A stretch of 24,305 bases of DNA from a virus. The stretch is from positions 1 through 24,305 of IMG/VR virus record IMGVR_UViG_3300006793_000276; one strand, written 5' to 3'. This document shows, piece by piece, positions 25 to 22,887 of the stretch. The notes under the pieces were generated by a model. The model was not told the origin of the DNA and ran no database searches. It saw only the letters and a program-made list of their open reading frames with translations. Every line of letters begins with the position of its first letter. The first letter of the stretch is position 1. The position numbers and the translations under genes are program-made.

Positions 25-65
25 CCTCGCTATTCGCTCGTAGATATGTCCTCGCTATTCGCTCG
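25..65. repeat. 16-bp direct repeat pair with flanking inverted copy
   Basis: CCTCGCTATTCGCTCG occurs at 25-40 and again, identically, at 50-65, 25 bp apart start to start. CCGAGCG at 8-14 is the reverse complement of CGCTCGG at 60-66, so the pair can also fold back on the left edge. The second copy runs into GGGGGTTTTG (64-73), so a terminator for an upstream transcript is possible, but the T run is short and the loop would be long. The copies sit immediately before the tandem structured element. What lies left of position 1 is not visible, so a longer array cannot be excluded. Confidence 0.6.
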
Positions 66-74
66 GGGGTTTTG

Positions 75-175
75 TGTCTCAAACAACCTAAGTAGGTTGA
101 TGCCGACAGCTTTACCACTTTCGTAGATGAGACTTAGCAGGAAACTAAGTCACACCTACGAAGTGCCAAGGGTGA
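75..175 (+). ncRNA. Structured RNA-like element, tandem copy 1
   Basis: First of two adjacent ~100-nt units; the first 47 nt (75-121) are identical to 176-222. It contains a near-perfect hairpin, CAACCTAAGTAGGTTG at 84-99, and a longer one: TTCGTAG (120-126) pairs with CTACGAA (156-162), extended inward by T128-A154 and G129-C153 and by GACTTAG (131-137) with CTAAGTC (145-151), closing a 7-nt loop CAGGAAA (138-144). CAC (116-118) and GTG (163-165) can extend the base with a one-base bulge. Compared with copy 2, three pairs change on both sides together, the pattern of a conserved RNA fold. I do not recognise the family; it does not fit hammerhead, glycine, glnA or cobalamin consensus elements as I know them. 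The strand is assumed from the downstream genes. Confidence 0.6.
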
Positions 176-275
176 TGTCTCAAACAACCTAAGTAGGTTG
201 ATGCCGACAGCTTTACCACTTTTGTAGATCTGACCTAGCAGGAAACTAGCTCAGACCTACAAATGCCAAGGGTGA
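176..275 (+). ncRNA. Structured RNA-like element, tandem copy 2
   Basis: Directly abuts copy 1. It repeats the hairpin CAACCTAAGTAGGTTG at 185-200 and the long hairpin: TTTGTAG (221-227) with CTACAAA (257-263), TCTGA (229-233) with TCAGA (251-255), and CTAG (235-238) with CTAG (246-249) around the same CAGGAAA loop (239-245). Relative to copy 1, C122-G160 has become T223-A261, T134-A148 has become C235-G249, and G129-C153 has become C230-G254. One pair is lost (C234 against C250) and one gained (T231-A253 where copy 1 has A against A). The shared ending GCCAAGGGTGA closes both units. Roles open to it include a phage non-coding RNA, a leader control element, an RNase III processing site or, at DNA level, a packaging site near the small terminase gene. 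Confidence 0.6.
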
Positions 276-564
276 ATTCCTCCCCATTAAGCAAAAGCCT
301 TTTGAAAAAGGTCTTGGGGTTATAGGGGGCAAACGACGGCTCGAGCTACGATGCAGACTATGAGTCCGCACCCCACCGTTACGCAACTCGTTGATGCTCA
401 GGCACAACATCAACATTGACTTCAACATTGAACCTCGGTTGAACACTATCACCCGTGATCTGACCTCAAACACACCCCAACCCCCCGTGGTACCTCAACT
501 ATCATCGCACCCGTACTTGAGATTAATATATAAAGTTAGTAGGTAACCTTTAGGCTTTTTGTTT

Positions 565-602
565 CCGGTCAGAATTTTACAACCGATAGACCCCCCGACC
601 GG
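565..602. promoter_or_regulatory. 6-bp inverted repeat upstream of the operon
   Basis: CCGGTC (565-570) and GACCGG (597-602) are perfect inverted copies separated by 26 nt, ending 45 nt before the first start codon. They could form an RNA stem in the leader or flank a protein-binding site. No T run follows, so an intrinsic terminator is unlikely. Six-base inverted repeats arise by chance, hence the low confidence. Confidence 0.25.
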
Positions 603-613
603 GGTAGGGTACC

Positions 614-629
614 TTAAATAGATATTTAA
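614..629. promoter_or_regulatory. 16-bp palindrome just before the first gene
   Basis: TTAAATAGATATTTAA is two 7-bp arms, TTAAATA and TATTTAA, around GA, ending 18 nt before the ATG at 648. Its position and symmetry fit an operator or an AT-rich promoter core for the late operon. As a stem it would be weak, because it is all A/T with a two-base loop, so a DNA-level role is more likely than a terminator. No standard sigma-70 pair of boxes can be drawn around it. Confidence 0.3.
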
Positions 630-647
630 CTTATTTAGGGAACCCAT

Positions 648-1043
648 ATGGCACGAAAATCTGGAGCAAAATACATACAAGAAGACATTCACCGTTTTGT
701 CGACGATGGAGACTTCGAGAATGCGGTTAATGTTCTCAGAAATGGGATGAAAGCGACCCACGTTGTTCGAAGAAGTAAGGAAAACGGCGAAAGAGGGGTT
801 GATTACGAAGAAGTACCCGATCACGGAACCCGAATTACCTCCGCAAAGCTGGTTCTCGAGTACGGATTCGGTAAAGCAGCGACCAGACACGACATTACAA
901 TGACCAAAGAAACATCAACCGTCGCAACACCGGCCGAAATCATGGATAGACTACGAGATTCAGGCGCTCAACTGGCCGATATTATCGATGTTTACTCCGA
1001 AACAGTGGAAAAAGTCCCCATGGAGATTGAAAACGATGGATAA
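648..1043 (+). CDS. Probable terminase small subunit
   Basis: This 131-residue protein opens the operon, after an AGGG ribosome site (637-640) 7 nt before ATG. The N-terminal half is mixed-charge and helical. Around residues 62-78 it reads GTRITSAKLVLEYGFGKAA, resembling the 'AAK-hhLEYGhGKP' signature seen in many short small-terminase proteins. The C-terminal third (PAEIMDRLRDSGAQLADI) is a helical, acidic tail that could contact the large subunit or other subunits. In known phages this protein binds the pac or cos site and regulates the motor. The size fits the shorter small terminases, and its place upstream of the large terminase supports the call, although seven genes lie between them. 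Small terminases diverge widely, so the name is probable only. The stop codon overlaps the next start by 8 nt. Confidence 0.55.
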   Translation: MARKSGAKYIQEDIHRFVDDGDFENAVNVLRNGMKATHVVRRSKENGERGVDYEEVPDHGTRITSAKLVLEYGFGKAATRHDITMTKETSTVATPAEIMDRLRDSGAQLADIIDVYSETVEKVPMEIENDG

Positions 1044-2785: not shown

Positions 2786-3585
2786 AGTCTGTATCCGTAA
2801 TGGCAACAGGGTCAGCTCTTCGCGAGGTTACCTTTCTCATATACTCGATCAGAATGTTATACAACTGCCCGATTTACGTGGTTTGTGACGACTATGTATA
2901 CACCAAGCTTAAAAGGATGGGTTTTTTATGGTTAAATCTAAAAGCCAGCGCAAACCCCGATGATTTAAAGAAAGCCGCCCACGAAACCGAATCCGTCAAA
3001 AGCCACAACGATTTCCACTCTGCGGGGGCAATTTGGACTAAAATAGGTGCTATGGAGTGGGCATTGGAGGAAGAAGGCGAAACTTTGTTTTTAGACGCGG
3101 ATATTGTCTTAAACAAACCAATTCACGAAGATATTCTTACTGATGTCGATGGAATGATATCCCCCCATTACCACACGGGGGATACTCTTATTGATAATCA
3201 GACATACGGAGCATTTAACGCCGGGTATGTGTTTGCCAGGCATTGTGATTTTGCGAAGGTTTGGAAAGAAATATACCTAACCCGATCAGCATTCTACGAG
3301 CAGCAGGGCATGATTTGGTTTTTCGAGCATTTCGACATGGGGGTCTTTAACAAGAACCACAATATTGGATTTTGGAGATTTGCTAAAAAATGGAAGAAGG
3401 GAACTCTTAGATTAGACGATTGGGGTATAGATTGGCCTAAAGCCAAATCTTTTCATTTTCACGCCTTTCCCGAAACTTATTCAAAAGCCAACAAAGGCTT
3501 AACCAGGGGTTATAATTTGCTCAAAGAAGAAATGGTTGAGCGTCTTAACCCAGAACTAAAAAAGATATATAATGATCTACTCTAA
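2782..3585 (+). CDS. Glycosyltransferase, nucleotide-sugar type with DxD motif
   Basis: 267 residues from a GTG start that overlaps the previous TGA (GTGA). The GTG is preferred to ATG 2800 because the first beta strand (KSVSVMATG) of a Rossmann-like GT-A fold would otherwise be lost. PIYVVCDD follows as the next strand. Residues 102-108 (TLFLDADIV, Asp105-Ala-Asp107) are the metal and nucleotide-sugar binding DxD site, and GAFNAGYVFAR matches the 'FNaGvhh' acceptor-side motif of GT8/GT77-like enzymes. KSFHFHAFPETY near the C-terminus is a plausible metal-binding histidine segment. No transmembrane helix is seen, so it is likely cytoplasmic, moving a sugar from a UDP- or GDP-sugar to an unknown acceptor. 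It is the first of a three-gene cassette with a sulfotransferase and another glycosyltransferase. Confidence 0.75.
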   Translation: MKSVSVMATGSALREVTFLIYSIRMLYNCPIYVVCDDYVYTKLKRMGFLWLNLKASANPDDLKKAAHETESVKSHNDFHSAGAIWTKIGAMEWALEEEGETLFLDADIVLNKPIHEDILTDVDGMISPHYHTGDTLIDNQTYGAFNAGYVFARHCDFAKVWKEIYLTRSAFYEQQGMIWFFEHFDMGVFNKNHNIGFWRFAKKWKKGTLRLDDWGIDWPKAKSFHFHAFPETYSKANKGLTRGYNLLKEEMVERLNPELKKIYNDLL

Positions 3586-4207
3586 AGAAGGCAACTGGGC
3601 ATTCGTCCATGTCCCAAAGAACGCTGGTACATCTTTCGTTAAACCTTTACGGAACCCCAAAATAAGAAAGGCGTTGGGCGTCGAGTTTCTAGAAAAAGGT
3701 CACTCTCTTCACCACAACAAGTGGAGCTGGTGGTCTCAGTTCGACGAGGTCAAGTCCTTGACCCCCGTGGCTATATGCCGAAACCCTTGGAGTAGGGCGT
3801 TGTCCATGTATCTATACAATATCAAGAATGCCGTTGCCAACATAGAGGAAGAGTGGGCAAGGCTCGATCACGCTCGCCTGTCGTTAGATGGCTTCAAAAG
3901 GTCATGGATGCCCGGCGGGTTTTTCGTAGACAAGCACGGCATAGACTTTGAGTATGACAAGAACACGGGGAGAGCGTGGGCGCAGTCAGATAATCAATGT
4001 TCGTGGCTAGATGGCTCATCAAAGAAAAAATGGTTTCGCCTTGAGGATGGATTAAATGATTTCTGCAAATTCACAAAACTACCCAAACCAGAAGTTTTAA
4101 ACGCTACTGTAAAAGTTAATTACCGAGACTATTATGATGACGAACTAGTGGAAAGAATAGGTACTCTTTTCGCTAAAGATGCCAAGCTAGGGGGGTACTC
4201 ATTCTAA
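3572..4207 (+). CDS. PAPS-dependent sulfotransferase (Sulfotransfer_2-like)
   Basis: 211 residues. The start overlaps the upstream gene by 14 nt with no clear ribosome site, suggesting coupled translation. FVHVPKNAGTSF (residues 11-22) is the 5'-phosphosulfate-binding loop of PAPS sulfotransferases. Arg70 to Ser78 in CRNPWSRALSMY is the 3'-phosphate-binding motif, with Arg and Ser spaced 8 apart as in the family. His44 in KGHSLHH is a candidate catalytic base. The C-terminal YYDDELVERIGTLFAKDAKL and following GGYSF match the usual tail of carbohydrate sulfotransferases. Expected reaction: transfer of sulfate from PAPS to a sugar hydroxyl, with PAPS supplied by the host because no PAPS synthesis gene is present here. 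Bracketing by two glycosyltransferases implies a sulfated glycan. The protein is shorter than typical Golgi relatives because it lacks a membrane anchor. Confidence 0.85.
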   Translation: MIYSKEGNWAFVHVPKNAGTSFVKPLRNPKIRKALGVEFLEKGHSLHHNKWSWWSQFDEVKSLTPVAICRNPWSRALSMYLYNIKNAVANIEEEWARLDHARLSLDGFKRSWMPGGFFVDKHGIDFEYDKNTGRAWAQSDNQCSWLDGSSKKKWFRLEDGLNDFCKFTKLPKPEVLNATVKVNYRDYYDDELVERIGTLFAKDAKLGGYSF

Positions 4208-5001
4208 TGAAAGTGCTAATATATCAAGTTTTCGTAACAGGCAGTCTAAAAGTGAAACACGACGCACTTATCGAAGAGTCAACCAGTAGTTTAAAAACAT
4301 ACTCAGATCATTACGGCATCGACTACACTTTTGAGTCCAAACCCACCTTTACCCCAGAGCAATTACCAAAAGATGCCGATAAGAGAATGCGGTTCTACTG
4401 GGCGATGGATTTATGCAAGCCCGAGCTTAGGCATTATGATTACATCGTACACTTTGATGCCGACATCATAATGCAGGAGGGTGCCCCTGATATCCGAAAA
4501 GAGTTAAAGGGCGATTTTATGGCAAACCGCGATCCGATTGATTACTTAGGTGAGTGGAACCGTCCTATGGCGTCGTTAAGAAGAGCTTTTGTCTTCCGTA
4601 ATGTCTCCGATCACTTTGGGTACCCTTGGTATAATCACTTCAATTCAGGCGTTTGGGCTTCTTCTCCAAAAGCAAGAAAATTGATTTGGGAAAATTGGCA
4701 AAAGGATGCCTTTAAATCTTACGAGGAAAAAGCCCCAAAGAGCTTTCCTTTTAAATTGGGCAACCCATATGGGGGAGACCAAAACATCCTAAACAACATC
4801 GTCCATAATTCCGACTTAGACTTTGTCCCTCTTGATTGGAAATGGAACGCATTAAGTGACACGCTTAAGAATTTAGATAAGGCATACGCCATCCACTACG
4901 GCGCAAAAGTTGGTAAGTTTCTTTACAACAACCCCGAATATCGGGACAAGACCCCCCTTAGCAAAGAAGCAATTAAGTTAATGGAGGAACAGATGCAATG
5001 A
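4207..5001 (+). CDS. Glycosyltransferase, GT8-like
   Basis: 264 residues; the start overlaps the previous stop by one base (TAATG), and an AGGGGGG run lies upstream at about 4189-4195. The N-terminus (KVLIYQVFVTG) is a beta strand. HFDADIIM places the DxD site at Asp84 and Asp86, FNSGVW at 145-150 matches the conserved substrate loop, GGDQNILNN (189-197) carries the second acidic site (Asp191), and IHYGAKVGKF (229-238) resembles the C-terminal histidine motif HxGxxKPW of GT8 retaining enzymes. It is therefore a better match to GT8 than the enzyme at 2782, and the two are not close copies. Donor and acceptor are unknown. The last bases overlap the large terminase start by 4 nt, so the sugar cassette and packaging gene share one transcript. 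Confidence 0.8.
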   Translation: MKVLIYQVFVTGSLKVKHDALIEESTSSLKTYSDHYGIDYTFESKPTFTPEQLPKDADKRMRFYWAMDLCKPELRHYDYIVHFDADIIMQEGAPDIRKELKGDFMANRDPIDYLGEWNRPMASLRRAFVFRNVSDHFGYPWYNHFNSGVWASSPKARKLIWENWQKDAFKSYEEKAPKSFPFKLGNPYGGDQNILNNIVHNSDLDFVPLDWKWNALSDTLKNLDKAYAIHYGAKVGKFLYNNPEYRDKTPLSKEAIKLMEEQMQ

Positions 5002-6746
5002 CAGACAAAGAACAGCAGTTAGCCAATTTAATCCGAATCGACCCCGAGGTCTGGTTCTCAACATTTGCCGTCATTAAGGATAAGAGGGGCAAAGATATTA
5101 AACCTAAAGCGAATACGCTACAAAAGCGTATGTTCGACCATTATAGAAAATGCCAAGTAGAAAAAAAGCCGTGCAAGATGATCATTCTAAAACCCCGTCA
5201 GAAGGGGGCGAGCACATGCGCTCAAGCTCTGACATACCACCACATGAGGAAGCACGAGAATCTGGCGGGCTCTCTGATGGGGGATATTGCGGGGACGAGC
5301 GACAAAGTCTTCGAGATCTATCGGAGATACGCCGAGAACGACGCCTTTCCGTGGGACGATACCGGAACAAATCTCGAGGATGGAGGCAATCTGGCAGACT
5401 TAATGAAACTAAGGTCCAAAAGTGCGTACGGAAAGGAAACCGCCGGATCGAAAAACGCAGGTCGAAGCGGAACTATCCAGGTCGGTAATATGACTGAGGT
5501 CGCTTTCTGGCCTAATACGGGACAAAAAGACCCCGCTCTTGGTTATCTACAGTCGCTGTACGACGGAGACAATGTTTCACTAGTTGTTGCCGACTCTACA
5601 CCGAATGGCCCAGCCGGTTGGTTTTATAACACATGGGTGCAGGACAATGAATGGGCTAAGATATTTGCCGCTTGGTGGGAGTTCGAAGATTCCGAAATAC
5701 CTTTCAAATCTGAAGTTGAACTTCAAGATTTCAAAGACACTATGACCGATGACGAGAAGTCAGAAGTCGAGCGTTTCGACGTAAACTGGGAGCAAATGCA
5801 TTGGAGAAGGAGAACTCTTCAGGACAAATGTAATGGCGATGTTTCTAAGTTCCGCCAGGAGTATCCATCGGATCCCGAAGAATGTTTCTTAATGTCGTCC
5901 CGCCCTCGTTTCCAGATTGAAGTACTAAAGGAAATGGCAGATGCGGCTCCTAAACAAGATAAAACCGTAGGTAGTCTAAGCTTACAGCCAAATAAGTCGG
6001 TATCTTATAATTTAGACAGGGCAGGGTCTTGGGTTGTTTACGAGCAACCTGAAGAAGATTCGAAGTATGTCATAGGCGTTGACACTTGTACTGGTGAAGA
6101 TCAGCAAATGCAAGGTTTAGCAGCCGACCCTGACTATCATAGCGTGCAAGTTTGGAAAGCTCCTTACGAAGATTGGCACGGAGACTGGCACGTAGCGAGG
6201 TTAGTTGCCCATCACCACTCTCGGGTAGAGATCGGAGTTCTCGCCGAGGAGATTGTCGCGGCAGCAACCTGGTACGGAAAGGCTTTCGTAGTCCCCGAAA
6301 TCAACAATAGTGGGTTAGCGATAATTAAATATCTACTAGAAGCGGGTTGCCATGTCTATCAACGAAGGAAAGTTAACAATTCAACAGGGATGGTCGAAAA
6401 GTTCTTTGGGTGGCAAACAGACAAAATAACAAGAAAAACATTAATCGACCATTTAGCTTCCGAAATCATGGATAGGAACATCGATATACCAGACGAAGGG
6501 GTGCTAAAGGAGTTAAAAACATTTATTATAAATGAAAAAGGAAAACCCGAAGCGGCACCAGGGCATCACGACGACCATGTCATGGCAACAGCGCTAGCCG
6601 TGTACAATATCGATTCCGCTACTACATTTAGAAAGCACAAGAAAAGAAAAATTACGAACAAGATGCTTAGGAAAAACCCAGGGCTTCTATGCCCAGACGG
6701 TTTTATGAGGGTTCCATTATCGGAATACAAGCGGTTGAGGAGGTAA
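4998..6746 (+). CDS. terL: Terminase large subunit (packaging ATPase and nuclease)
   Basis: 582 residues, usual for the family. ATG at 4998 has GGAGG at 4983-4987 and overlaps the upstream stop by 4 nt. The ATPase half has the phage-type Walker A LKPRQKGAST (64-73), Walker B ending NMTEVAFW with Glu167 as catalytic acid, and the coupling motif ADSTPNG (198-204). EYPSDPEECFL (288-298) is the typical linker signature. The RNase H-like nuclease half shows VIGVDTCTGED (Asp362), FVVPEINNSG (Glu434) and HHDDHVMATALAVYN (Asp525 or Asp526), so both domains look intact. It powers DNA translocation through the portal and cuts the concatemer. Codons from about 5190 to 5500 are distinctly GC-richer (about 55% in three sampled 60-base lines) than the end of the gene (32% in one line). 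Confidence 0.95.
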   Translation: MTDKEQQLANLIRIDPEVWFSTFAVIKDKRGKDIKPKANTLQKRMFDHYRKCQVEKKPCKMIILKPRQKGASTCAQALTYHHMRKHENLAGSLMGDIAGTSDKVFEIYRRYAENDAFPWDDTGTNLEDGGNLADLMKLRSKSAYGKETAGSKNAGRSGTIQVGNMTEVAFWPNTGQKDPALGYLQSLYDGDNVSLVVADSTPNGPAGWFYNTWVQDNEWAKIFAAWWEFEDSEIPFKSEVELQDFKDTMTDDEKSEVERFDVNWEQMHWRRRTLQDKCNGDVSKFRQEYPSDPEECFLMSSRPRFQIEVLKEMADAAPKQDKTVGSLSLQPNKSVSYNLDRAGSWVVYEQPEEDSKYVIGVDTCTGEDQQMQGLAADPDYHSVQVWKAPYEDWHGDWHVARLVAHHHSRVEIGVLAEEIVAAATWYGKAFVVPEINNSGLAIIKYLLEAGCHVYQRRKVNNSTGMVEKFFGWQTDKITRKTLIDHLASEIMDRNIDIPDEGVLKELKTFIINEKGKPEAAPGHHDDHVMATALAVYNIDSATTFRKHKKRKITNKMLRKNPGLLCPDGFMRVPLSEYKRLRR

Positions 6747-20847: not shown

Positions 20848-22887
20848 GTGAAGAATACAAATTTAGTACTAAGTCGTGAACAGGAAGAAAAACTCGTGGA
20901 GTACGCACTTGAGCGAGTTGAAAGCTTAAAAGAAGACAACTCCGCGCGTATAAGTAGTGACTTACACTCTTGGTCTGTTTATCAAAATGACCGCAAGGAT
21001 AGGGACGCTATTGACAGTATCTTCGCTCAATCAAATGTCTCCGTTCCTTTAACTAGTTTAGTCGTAGACCATTTTTTAGCTAGAGCTGAAGATGAGATAA
21101 CAGGGACAAGTCCTTATTTCGAATTTAAACCACAAGGTGTTTCCGATACGGTTTCCGCCGAATCTTTTAATAGGTACTTCCATTGGAAATTGGAAGACAA
21201 AGGTAGGATCCGAGAAAGATTAGAAGAAAGTTTTCTTCATATATTCTTACAAAGAGCAGCTATTTTTAAGTCCGTTTACGAAGAGCGTAAATCTGTATGG
21301 TACGATTTAGAAAGAAGCGCTCTGTTTGATAATGAGACTCAAGAGTTTGTAGAACTTCTTGAGCAAGGGCCTGTTATAGAAGGAGACGCACCAATGTTTC
21401 CCGAGGTTAACCCAGAAACCGGCGAAACCGAGACACGACTCGAAGCAGACCCTTCGTTCACCGTAACTCCTGGAAAGCACGAATTTAAACCATACCCCGA
21501 AGGTGTGCCGACCGAGCAAATTAAGTACAAAGGTCCTAGGTCGGTGGTCGTTGATTCGGACAGGTTCTTGGCCCCAAGTTCAGTAGAGCACCTAGAGTAT
21601 GCCGACTTCATTGGCGAGCTTTACGATAAAGATTTAAATTGGTGCCGCGATATATTTTTTGAGCGTGAGTGGTTTTCTTTTTCCGACTACGAAGAGGCTG
21701 TAAAGAAGGACTCTAACCCTAGAACAAAAAGTAAAAAGAACGAAGATTCTAAGGACAGTAAAACTTGGGAAAAAGAAAAGATTCCTATGGTTCCCGTAGT
21801 TGAATGTTGGATTTCAAAAGATATACTAGGAACGGGGCAGCCTCAAGATTTCTGCGTATTTATAGATACTGAAATTAAAAAAGCTATTTTTTACGAGTAC
21901 ACAGCTAAGCTCACCCCCGACAATAAACCACCTTATGTAACCGTAGCGATCGGTAAGATGAATAATAAATGGTGGGGTCCGAGTCTTCCTGAAAAAATAA
22001 GAACATACCAAGAGTACATCGATAAACAGTTTAATAGCGAAAGCTATCGTAACGAGTTGTCCGCTAATCCTATTATAGGTGTAAACCCTCAGGCAGTAGA
22101 AGACGAACCCGAAGATGTCGAGCTCCACGCGGGTAAGTTATTTCAACTTAAAGACCAATACAGCATGGACGATTTTCTTTCGTTCTCGGCTTTACCTAAT
22201 TTAGATAACAAGACCCAGGAGTTAATCGATTTTGTATTCGGCATGGTTCAACTTTGGCTTGGGGTTAGTAATATGGCACAAGGAGATTACCAAGCTTTAT
22301 CGCCCGCTAATACTGCAACGGGAGTTGAGGCAACTTTAAACGAAGCTTCTAAAATAGGGCGAAGGTGGATGCGTAGAATCGTAAGAGGGTTTGAAGAGCA
22401 CCTTGCAAAATTAATAAAAGTTGCAATGGCAACTATGGACGAAGCTGAGGTCTACGAATACATGGAAGGGGATGTGGCCGCTTTTGCGGAGATGACTCCC
22501 GAGATGATTTCGGATCTTGAGATGAATTGTAAGGTCATCCTTTCACAGGACCAAGGACAGCGGGCTATCGAAAAAGCCAACCTTGCTCTTCAGGTTCAGG
22601 AAAGATTTTTACAGCATCCACCCGAAATTCGACCATTCAGCCGCCCAATGTTTAAGCGCATTTTAGACGCCCTTGGTTACGAAAATACCGAAGAACTTTT
22701 ACCAGAAGCCGCACCACCTGACCCTAAAAGCGAAGCTGAGATTATGAAACTCATGGCGGATGCACAGGGCACAGGAGGAGGAGCTGGGCAAGCCCCAGAA
22801 GCGGGTGATCAAATCAACGCACAAGTCCAGGGGATGGGTAACAGCAACCCTCAAGGCGAAAATCAATATCAACAACAGACAGGATAA
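20848..22887 (+). CDS. Portal protein
   Basis: 679 residues, in the range of P22-like portals. The only workable start is GTG 20848, 11 nt after the giant gene's stop, since the next in-frame Met codon lies far inside the protein; no Shine-Dalgarno site precedes it. PLTSLVVDHFLARAEDEITG near residues 72-91 is the conserved early wing helix; KWWGPSLPEKIRTYQEYIDK and the following FNSESYRNELSANPIIGVNP match the stem and clip region, and SPANTATGVEATLNEASKIG with RRWMRRIVRGFEEHL form the long crown-side helices. The C-terminal 60 residues are Gly/Gln/Asn-rich and disordered. The portal dodecamer forms the vertex through which the terminase pumps DNA. Lying after the giant protein instead of directly after the large terminase is unusual. 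Confidence 0.9.
   Translation: MKNTNLVLSREQEEKLVEYALERVESLKEDNSARISSDLHSWSVYQNDRKDRDAIDSIFAQSNVSVPLTSLVVDHFLARAEDEITGTSPYFEFKPQGVSDTVSAESFNRYFHWKLEDKGRIRERLEESFLHIFLQRAAIFKSVYEERKSVWYDLERSALFDNETQEFVELLEQGPVIEGDAPMFPEVNPETGETETRLEADPSFTVTPGKHEFKPYPEGVPTEQIKYKGPRSVVVDSDRFLAPSSVEHLEYADFIGELYDKDLNWCRDIFFEREWFSFSDYEEAVKKDSNPRTKSKKNEDSKDSKTWEKEKIPMVPVVECWISKDILGTGQPQDFCVFIDTEIKKAIFYEYTAKLTPDNKPPYVTVAIGKMNNKWWGPSLPEKIRTYQEYIDKQFNSESYRNELSANPIIGVNPQAVEDEPEDVELHAGKLFQLKDQYSMDDFLSFSALPNLDNKTQELIDFVFGMVQLWLGVSNMAQGDYQALSPANTATGVEATLNEASKIGRRWMRRIVRGFEEHLAKLIKVAMATMDEAEVYEYMEGDVAAFAEMTPEMISDLEMNCKVILSQDQGQRAIEKANLALQVQERFLQHPPEIRPFSRPMFKRILDALGYENTEELLPEAAPPDPKSEAEIMKLMADAQGTGGGAGQAPEAGDQINAQVQGMGNSNPQGENQYQQQTG

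Follow-up and report, generated by a model that had tools for sequence, protein, structure and literature searches.

A structured element of about 100 nt, present in two head-to-tail copies at the left end of a 24.3-kb virus record (the window, by which we mean the whole stretch of DNA that was analysed), has a fold that is under selection. The record belongs to a family of uncultured marine phages. No Rfam family covers this structured phage element; covariation supports its fold, and there is clear evidence that it is exchanged as a module.

Layout of the tandem element

The two copies lie within a 647-bp non-coding region. The features of the window are as follows, with strand given where one applies.

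75–175 (101 nt): element copy 1, type A; 99 of 100 positions identical to L005 positions 2559–2658
176–275 (100 nt): element copy 2, type A, head-to-tail with copy 1 and 91% identical to it
75–108 (+): P1/P2 domain of copy 1; P1 75–78/105–108, 5×5 internal loop 79–83/100–104, P2 84–89/94–99
121–161 (+): P3 long hairpin of copy 1; P3a 121–126/156–161, mismatch A127·C155, P3b 128–137/145–154, loop 138–144 (CAGGAAA)
176–209 (+): P1/P2 domain of copy 2, same as in copy 1; P1 176–179/206–209, P2 185–190/195–200
222–262 (+): P3 long hairpin of copy 2; P3a 222–227/257–262, mismatch A228·C256, P3b 229–238/246–255, loop 239–245
276–647 (+): conserved late leader, directly 3′ of copy 2; context, outside the element
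648–1043 (+): 131-aa ORF conserved in the family, putative small terminase subunit by position alone
4998–6746 (+): terminase large subunit (TerL; phrog_24361, 2e-17; phrog_2, 1e-14)
20848–22887: SU10-type portal

The sequence-only reading had described two abutting copies that share 47 bases and then differ mostly in paired positions, and this description held in its particulars. Specifically, positions 75–121 are identical to 176–222, and the eight substitutions and one 1-nt deletion (at 163) that separate the copies are all in the long-hairpin part, with 8 of 8 substitutions at paired positions of that one hairpin. The three double changes listed at the outset are likewise exact (C122–G160 to T223–A261, G129–C153 to C230–G254 and T134–A148 to C235–G249), and to these we add one pair that is lost in copy 2 (C133–G149 to C234·C250) and one that is gained (A130·A152 to T231–A253), neither of which, like the deletion, the sequence-only reading had mentioned. 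Random placement of eight substitutions over the whole element never gave three or more compensated pairs in 200,000 trials; with placement restricted to the hairpin, this happened at a rate of 8.5e-5. Fold z-scores for copies 1 and 2 are −3.3 and −3.4 on the plus strand and −6.2 and −4.8 on the minus strand.

The element is non-coding, as stops interrupt all six reading frames through it. No intrinsic terminator (a G+C-rich hairpin followed by a U run) was called on either strand of 75–275, no sigma-70 promoter was called in positions 1–1100 of the window, and no promoter or terminator able to yield a separate small RNA from the element was found.

With respect to the surrounding genes, the 131-aa ORF gave no PHROG or Pfam match, and the window also encodes a 3745-aa LPD38 protein. 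An ORF at 3572–4207, between the 131-aa ORF and TerL, carries the motif VHVPKNAGTSF, which we take to be the P-loop of sulfotransferases; a Pfam search of this ORF at E 0.001 returned no match. The late leader is conserved in seven relatives, and strong conservation of 276–647 is seen in L077, L010, L014, L013, L009 and L018, with the blocks GGGGTTATAGGGGG, GCAGACTATGAGTCYGCA, ACCCCCCGTGGTACC and ACAACCGATAGACCCCCC. This leader is possibly a structured RNA with long-range GGGG/CCCC pairing; its pairs are mostly invariant, so covariation is as yet uninformative there.

Homologous copies and covariation

In IMG/VR, a scan yielded one more copy that is nearly identical; it belongs to L005 and occupies the corresponding position, about 540 bp 5′ of the same conserved ORF. 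Relatives identified through their terminase provided diverged copies in L077, L010, L014 and L013/L011, all upstream of the conserved ORF. There are thus five further distinct copies in relatives, all at one location, between the early-gene terminator and the packaging-gene leader. In the structural alignment the diverged copies match those of the window at only about 41–50% of positions, yet they fold alike when folded independently, with no structure supplied.

The shared architecture consists of P1 (NGTC/GACN), a 5×5 internal loop (TYMAA/ATRCC), P2 (CAACCT/AGGTTG, becoming CAAACTT/AAGTTTG), a short joiner with CTTTAYC, and a long hairpin with an A·C mismatch six pairs up. The pairs of P1 and P2 are kept in every homologue except for the outer P1 pair of L005, and they include double changes (P2 C87–G96 to A–T; P1 T–A to C–G). 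The letters of the P1/P2 internal loop are nearly invariant, and P3 drifts: across the homologues, both sides have changed in two pairs of P3a and in the eight proximal pairs of P3b, and one P3b pair occurs in all four Watson–Crick types.

Because MAFFT placed the 3′ half of the diverged copies wrongly, the structural alignment used to count covariation was made by hand, and all of its rows were verified against the DNA. Over all seven copies, pairing is intact in 171 of the 177 pair cells, and double changes occur in 12 of the 27 pairs. These figures lean toward the structure because the alignment was built with it in mind, and their exact values need care because the rows are few, fall into two groups and were aligned under structural guidance. 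Slid controls, in which the partner was shifted by 1–3 columns, offset this bias in part and gave 42–73 paired cells and 0–4 double-changed pairs. Among 5000 column shuffles, none reached the observed paired-cell count, 70 reached the extra-type count and 289 reached the double-changed-pair count. The independent folding of each sequence agrees in direction with these counts.

Taken together, the pairs kept and the double changes show that the fold is under selection. The proposal of a selected fold was to fall if homologues lost the pairing; instead, the five distinct homologues keep P1, P2 and P3 with many double changes. The further suggestion of a novel class present in tandem stood in part: the element matches no Rfam family, but the tandem arrangement is found in this contig only and may not be a trait of the class, as all homologues are single copies. 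The group is so far small and drawn from one phage family, and the R1 covariance model, run over 27 viral records, found no further true copies.

Searches of known families

The initial impression that the element fits no known riboswitch, ribozyme or phage RNA consensus agrees with a covariance-model scan against Rfam 15, which at gathering score gave no match for the window, L044, L038, L020, L024, L037, L077 or L014. Relaxing the threshold to E up to 5 brought up nothing credible, the best sub-threshold hit being to a microRNA family at E 0.66, and a search for tRNA and tmRNA found none. Against annotated phages (50,697 records) and plasmids (72,556), blastn returned only chance matches of 24–31 bases, and an exact 20-mer found no match in 85,000 bacterial and archaeal species genomes.

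Several candidates raised by pattern searches were rejected. A degenerate pattern matched 30 stretches in bacterial and archaeal genomes, none with more than four P2 pairs. The IMG/VR pattern matches L002–L004, L006 and L007 have only the 18–19-base core and no P2 stem, and matches L134–L153, which also have no P2 stem, were likewise put down to chance. The pattern TCAAACN{10,22}GATGCCGACAG gave 49 stretches, all chance except L005. A likeness to the Cas12a repeat, GTCT...GTAGAT, was weighed and set aside, since the diverged copies do not retain the 3′ half.

Exchange of the element within one slot

Comparison of the window with its relatives shows an element that is exchanged as a unit. Between the window and L005 the element is 99% identical but TerL only 74%, and blastn aligns nothing of the two regions beyond the element and about 12 bp upstream of it. 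Conversely, the leader of the window is 85% identical to that of L077 (279–652 against 511–905) right after an element that is only about 42% identical. By these alignments the element is a swappable cassette, exchanged among related marine phages in one slot. It is also absent from the close relative L009 (TerL 90% identical) and from L018, and is dispensable.

In the L005 lineage the slot is bounded by CCGAGT, after the early terminator, and by the sigma-70-like leader promoter, which in L005 lies downstream of the element (TTGACT-18-TATTAT, 2691–2720). The slot measures 4–7 nt when empty, as in L030, L034 and L052, and 109–144 nt when filled, by type A in L005 and by unrelated structured elements in L020, L038 and L044. 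The elements of the other two types are the following.

L038 6151–6225 and L020 1690–1765: type B element, in the same slot, fold z −7 to −11
L044 553–652 (= L056) and L024 4413–4510: type C element, in the slot in L044 and inside the leader in L024

Type B has perfect hairpin stems of 19–20 bp, unrelated in sequence, around a conserved CATATATCTC...CTGAAG. Type C has a long hairpin around GACGCTAAAGCGTCGACAGC and unrelated 13–14-bp stems around a conserved TTCGCTGT...CGCTAAAGCGTCGACAGCTGG...GCCTC. Each of the two types is thus represented by two examples with entirely different stems and a common core.

Two further features of this region were observed. In L037, at about 2370–2620, the slot has a duplicated flank, GGTCACGAGCAAGCTCGCTCCATTGA, around another structured-looking insert. 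Directly 5′ of the element is a small hairpin with a TTCG loop (window 40–74; GTCCTTCGGGGG in L077 and GTCCTTCGGGAG in L005), which seems to have been partly co-transferred with the element.

Strand preference and nick-like sites

The minus strand folds better than the plus strand by 2–9 kcal/mol in seven of seven copies, mainly because the conserved mismatch (A·C in five copies, C·A in one and T·C in one) becomes G·U or U·G there. The outer P1 pair is T–A, T·G or C–G in six copies and A·A in L005, and this series, with T·G in L077, is a normal wobble route on the plus strand only. The wobble evidence for strand is therefore contradictory, with the A·C mismatch favouring the minus strand and the P1 T·G of L077 favouring the plus strand.

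A separate observation concerns the motif ACTATCAY, which occurs 138 times on the plus strand of the family contigs and 0 times on the minus strand. Of 72 family contigs, 16 start with ATCA, their first base being the A that follows ACT, against a background of 0.5% (binomial P ~6e-22); not all of the contigs counted are independent, as one virus may have been recovered from several samples. Contigs with this start include L010, L011, L013, L031, L032, L036, L037, L045, L055, L060, L065, L066, L078, L079 and L083; L078 and L083, whose TerL is 100% identical to that of the window, start at window positions 501 and 6136. Plus-strand ACTATCA sites in the window are at 445, 498, 6133, 12367, 16012, 17931 and 22887. 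The pattern strongly suggests physical, strand-specific single-strand nicks at ACT|ATCAY in this family. In the Pseudomonas putida phage tf, nicks follow the consensus TACT/RTGMC and are found on one strand only (PMC3517423). The ACT|ATCA pattern, read here from sequence, resembles that consensus and has a likeness to the nicks of phiKMV-like phages and T5.

Possible functions of the element

The reading that we favour, tentatively and at somewhat less than even confidence, is that the element is an accessory structured small RNA that acts in trans by binding a protein through the invariant P1/P2 internal loop. Such an RNA would be made during infection, with the loop as the recognition surface for a host or phage protein and P3 as a scaffold or protection, and a tandem copy would give a higher dosage. 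Since the element is dispensable and its place in the slot can be taken by unrelated structured elements, it would most likely be cargo acting in trans, with a host function or defence as a possible target, and not an essential component of the late operon. A near-invariant core beside a drifting P3 is, moreover, what is expected of a recognition core. Counting against a small RNA is the size of the swapped unit, which is barely longer than the structure and so brings along no signals for its own expression.

Second, and in our view on the unlikely side, is an RNA that acts in cis at the boundary of early and late genes and controls read-through into the late operon, either through a put-like action of the nascent transcript on RNA polymerase or as an RNase III-type processing site of the mRNA. 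The element does sit between the early terminator and the late operon in the contigs that span that region, its layout of two stem-loops is like that of put, and P3, at about 17 bp with a single mismatch, would be a suitable substrate for an RNase specific for double-stranded RNA. Nonetheless, close relatives (L009 and L018) manage without it, unrelated elements replace it in the slot, and the minus strand folds better. The position of the sigma-70-like promoter in L005 is also awkward for control in cis, as the main leader transcript, starting 3′ of the element, would lack it.

Third in our ranking, and rather improbable, is a hairpin or small mobile element at the level of DNA, whose inverted repeats, single-stranded or extruded as a cruciform, would be recognized by a nickase, a recombinase or a protein of replication or packaging, and which would move as DNA. 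The nearly exact exchange boundaries and the head-to-tail duplication fit this idea, as do the strand-specific nick-like sites nearby and the occurrence of type C at two different places (the slot in L044, the leader in L024), and wobble pairs that favour neither strand consistently are to be expected of DNA. However, a conserved core whose stems covary freely is seen more typically in RNA than where DNA is recognized by its sequence; neither a target-site duplication nor a transposase was seen, and type A is found in one slot only. The tandem itself could also be an artefact of assembly, in which two population variants were joined head to tail, although we regard this as quite unlikely, the least probable of the explanations given here. 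The contig starts only 74 bp upstream of copy 1, no other contig of the same phage spans the region (L078 starts at window position 501), and single copies are the rule in the homologues; yet an assembler faced with a bubble of two variants would normally keep a single copy instead of making a tandem, the two copies meet exactly, and the sequence after them runs on into the leader shared with L077. The element itself is in either case confirmed in other contigs.

Returning to a small RNA acting in trans, a broader form of this proposal is that the slot takes up, as cargo, structured small RNAs that are unrelated to one another and exchanged between phages (types A, B and C), each combining a conserved core with stems that vary freely; they would serve as trans-acting RNA "morons" in counter-defence or host takeover. 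We hold this to be doubtful, more so than a DNA hairpin. If the element is an RNA, the slot would be a place from which unrelated phage small RNAs could be collected directly as a set and tested singly. If it is DNA, it would be an unusual exchanged hairpin that marks the boundary of the early and late regions.

Comparison with known systems

RNA anti-CRISPRs (Racrs) are small non-coding phage RNAs that act in counter-defence (PMC10651486), and they mimic CRISPR repeats. On an informal comparison, the element bears no evident likeness to such repeats. Tandem structured RNA repeats that are carried or amplified by phages are also known in the type III antitoxin ToxI and its phage-borne mimics. 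The ToxI repeats are, however, pseudoknots of about 36 nt that adjoin a toxin gene, whereas the element consists of plain stem-loops over about 100 nt. No type III antitoxin family (ToxI and relatives) was matched in Rfam, and no toxin gene was found beside the element in the window, which starts 74 bp 5′ of copy 1 and whose neighbouring ORFs match only phage structural genes in Pfam and PHROG.

The put RNA binds the β′ zinc-binding domain of RNA polymerase and suppresses termination. In phage HK022, putL and putR encode this non-coding intergenic antitermination RNA in two copies per genome, each of about 70 nt with two stem-loops (PMC9378689). Like put, the element is a phage intergenic, non-coding sequence with two adjacent stem-loops in one strand and two copies in the genome. 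The put sites lie 3′ of early promoters with the copies far apart, whereas the element is about 100 nt long, follows the early terminator and is dispensable, and the comparison is one of layout, not of sequence. A put-like position or action is doubtful here, and it is in layout that HK022 put is the closest known system to the element.
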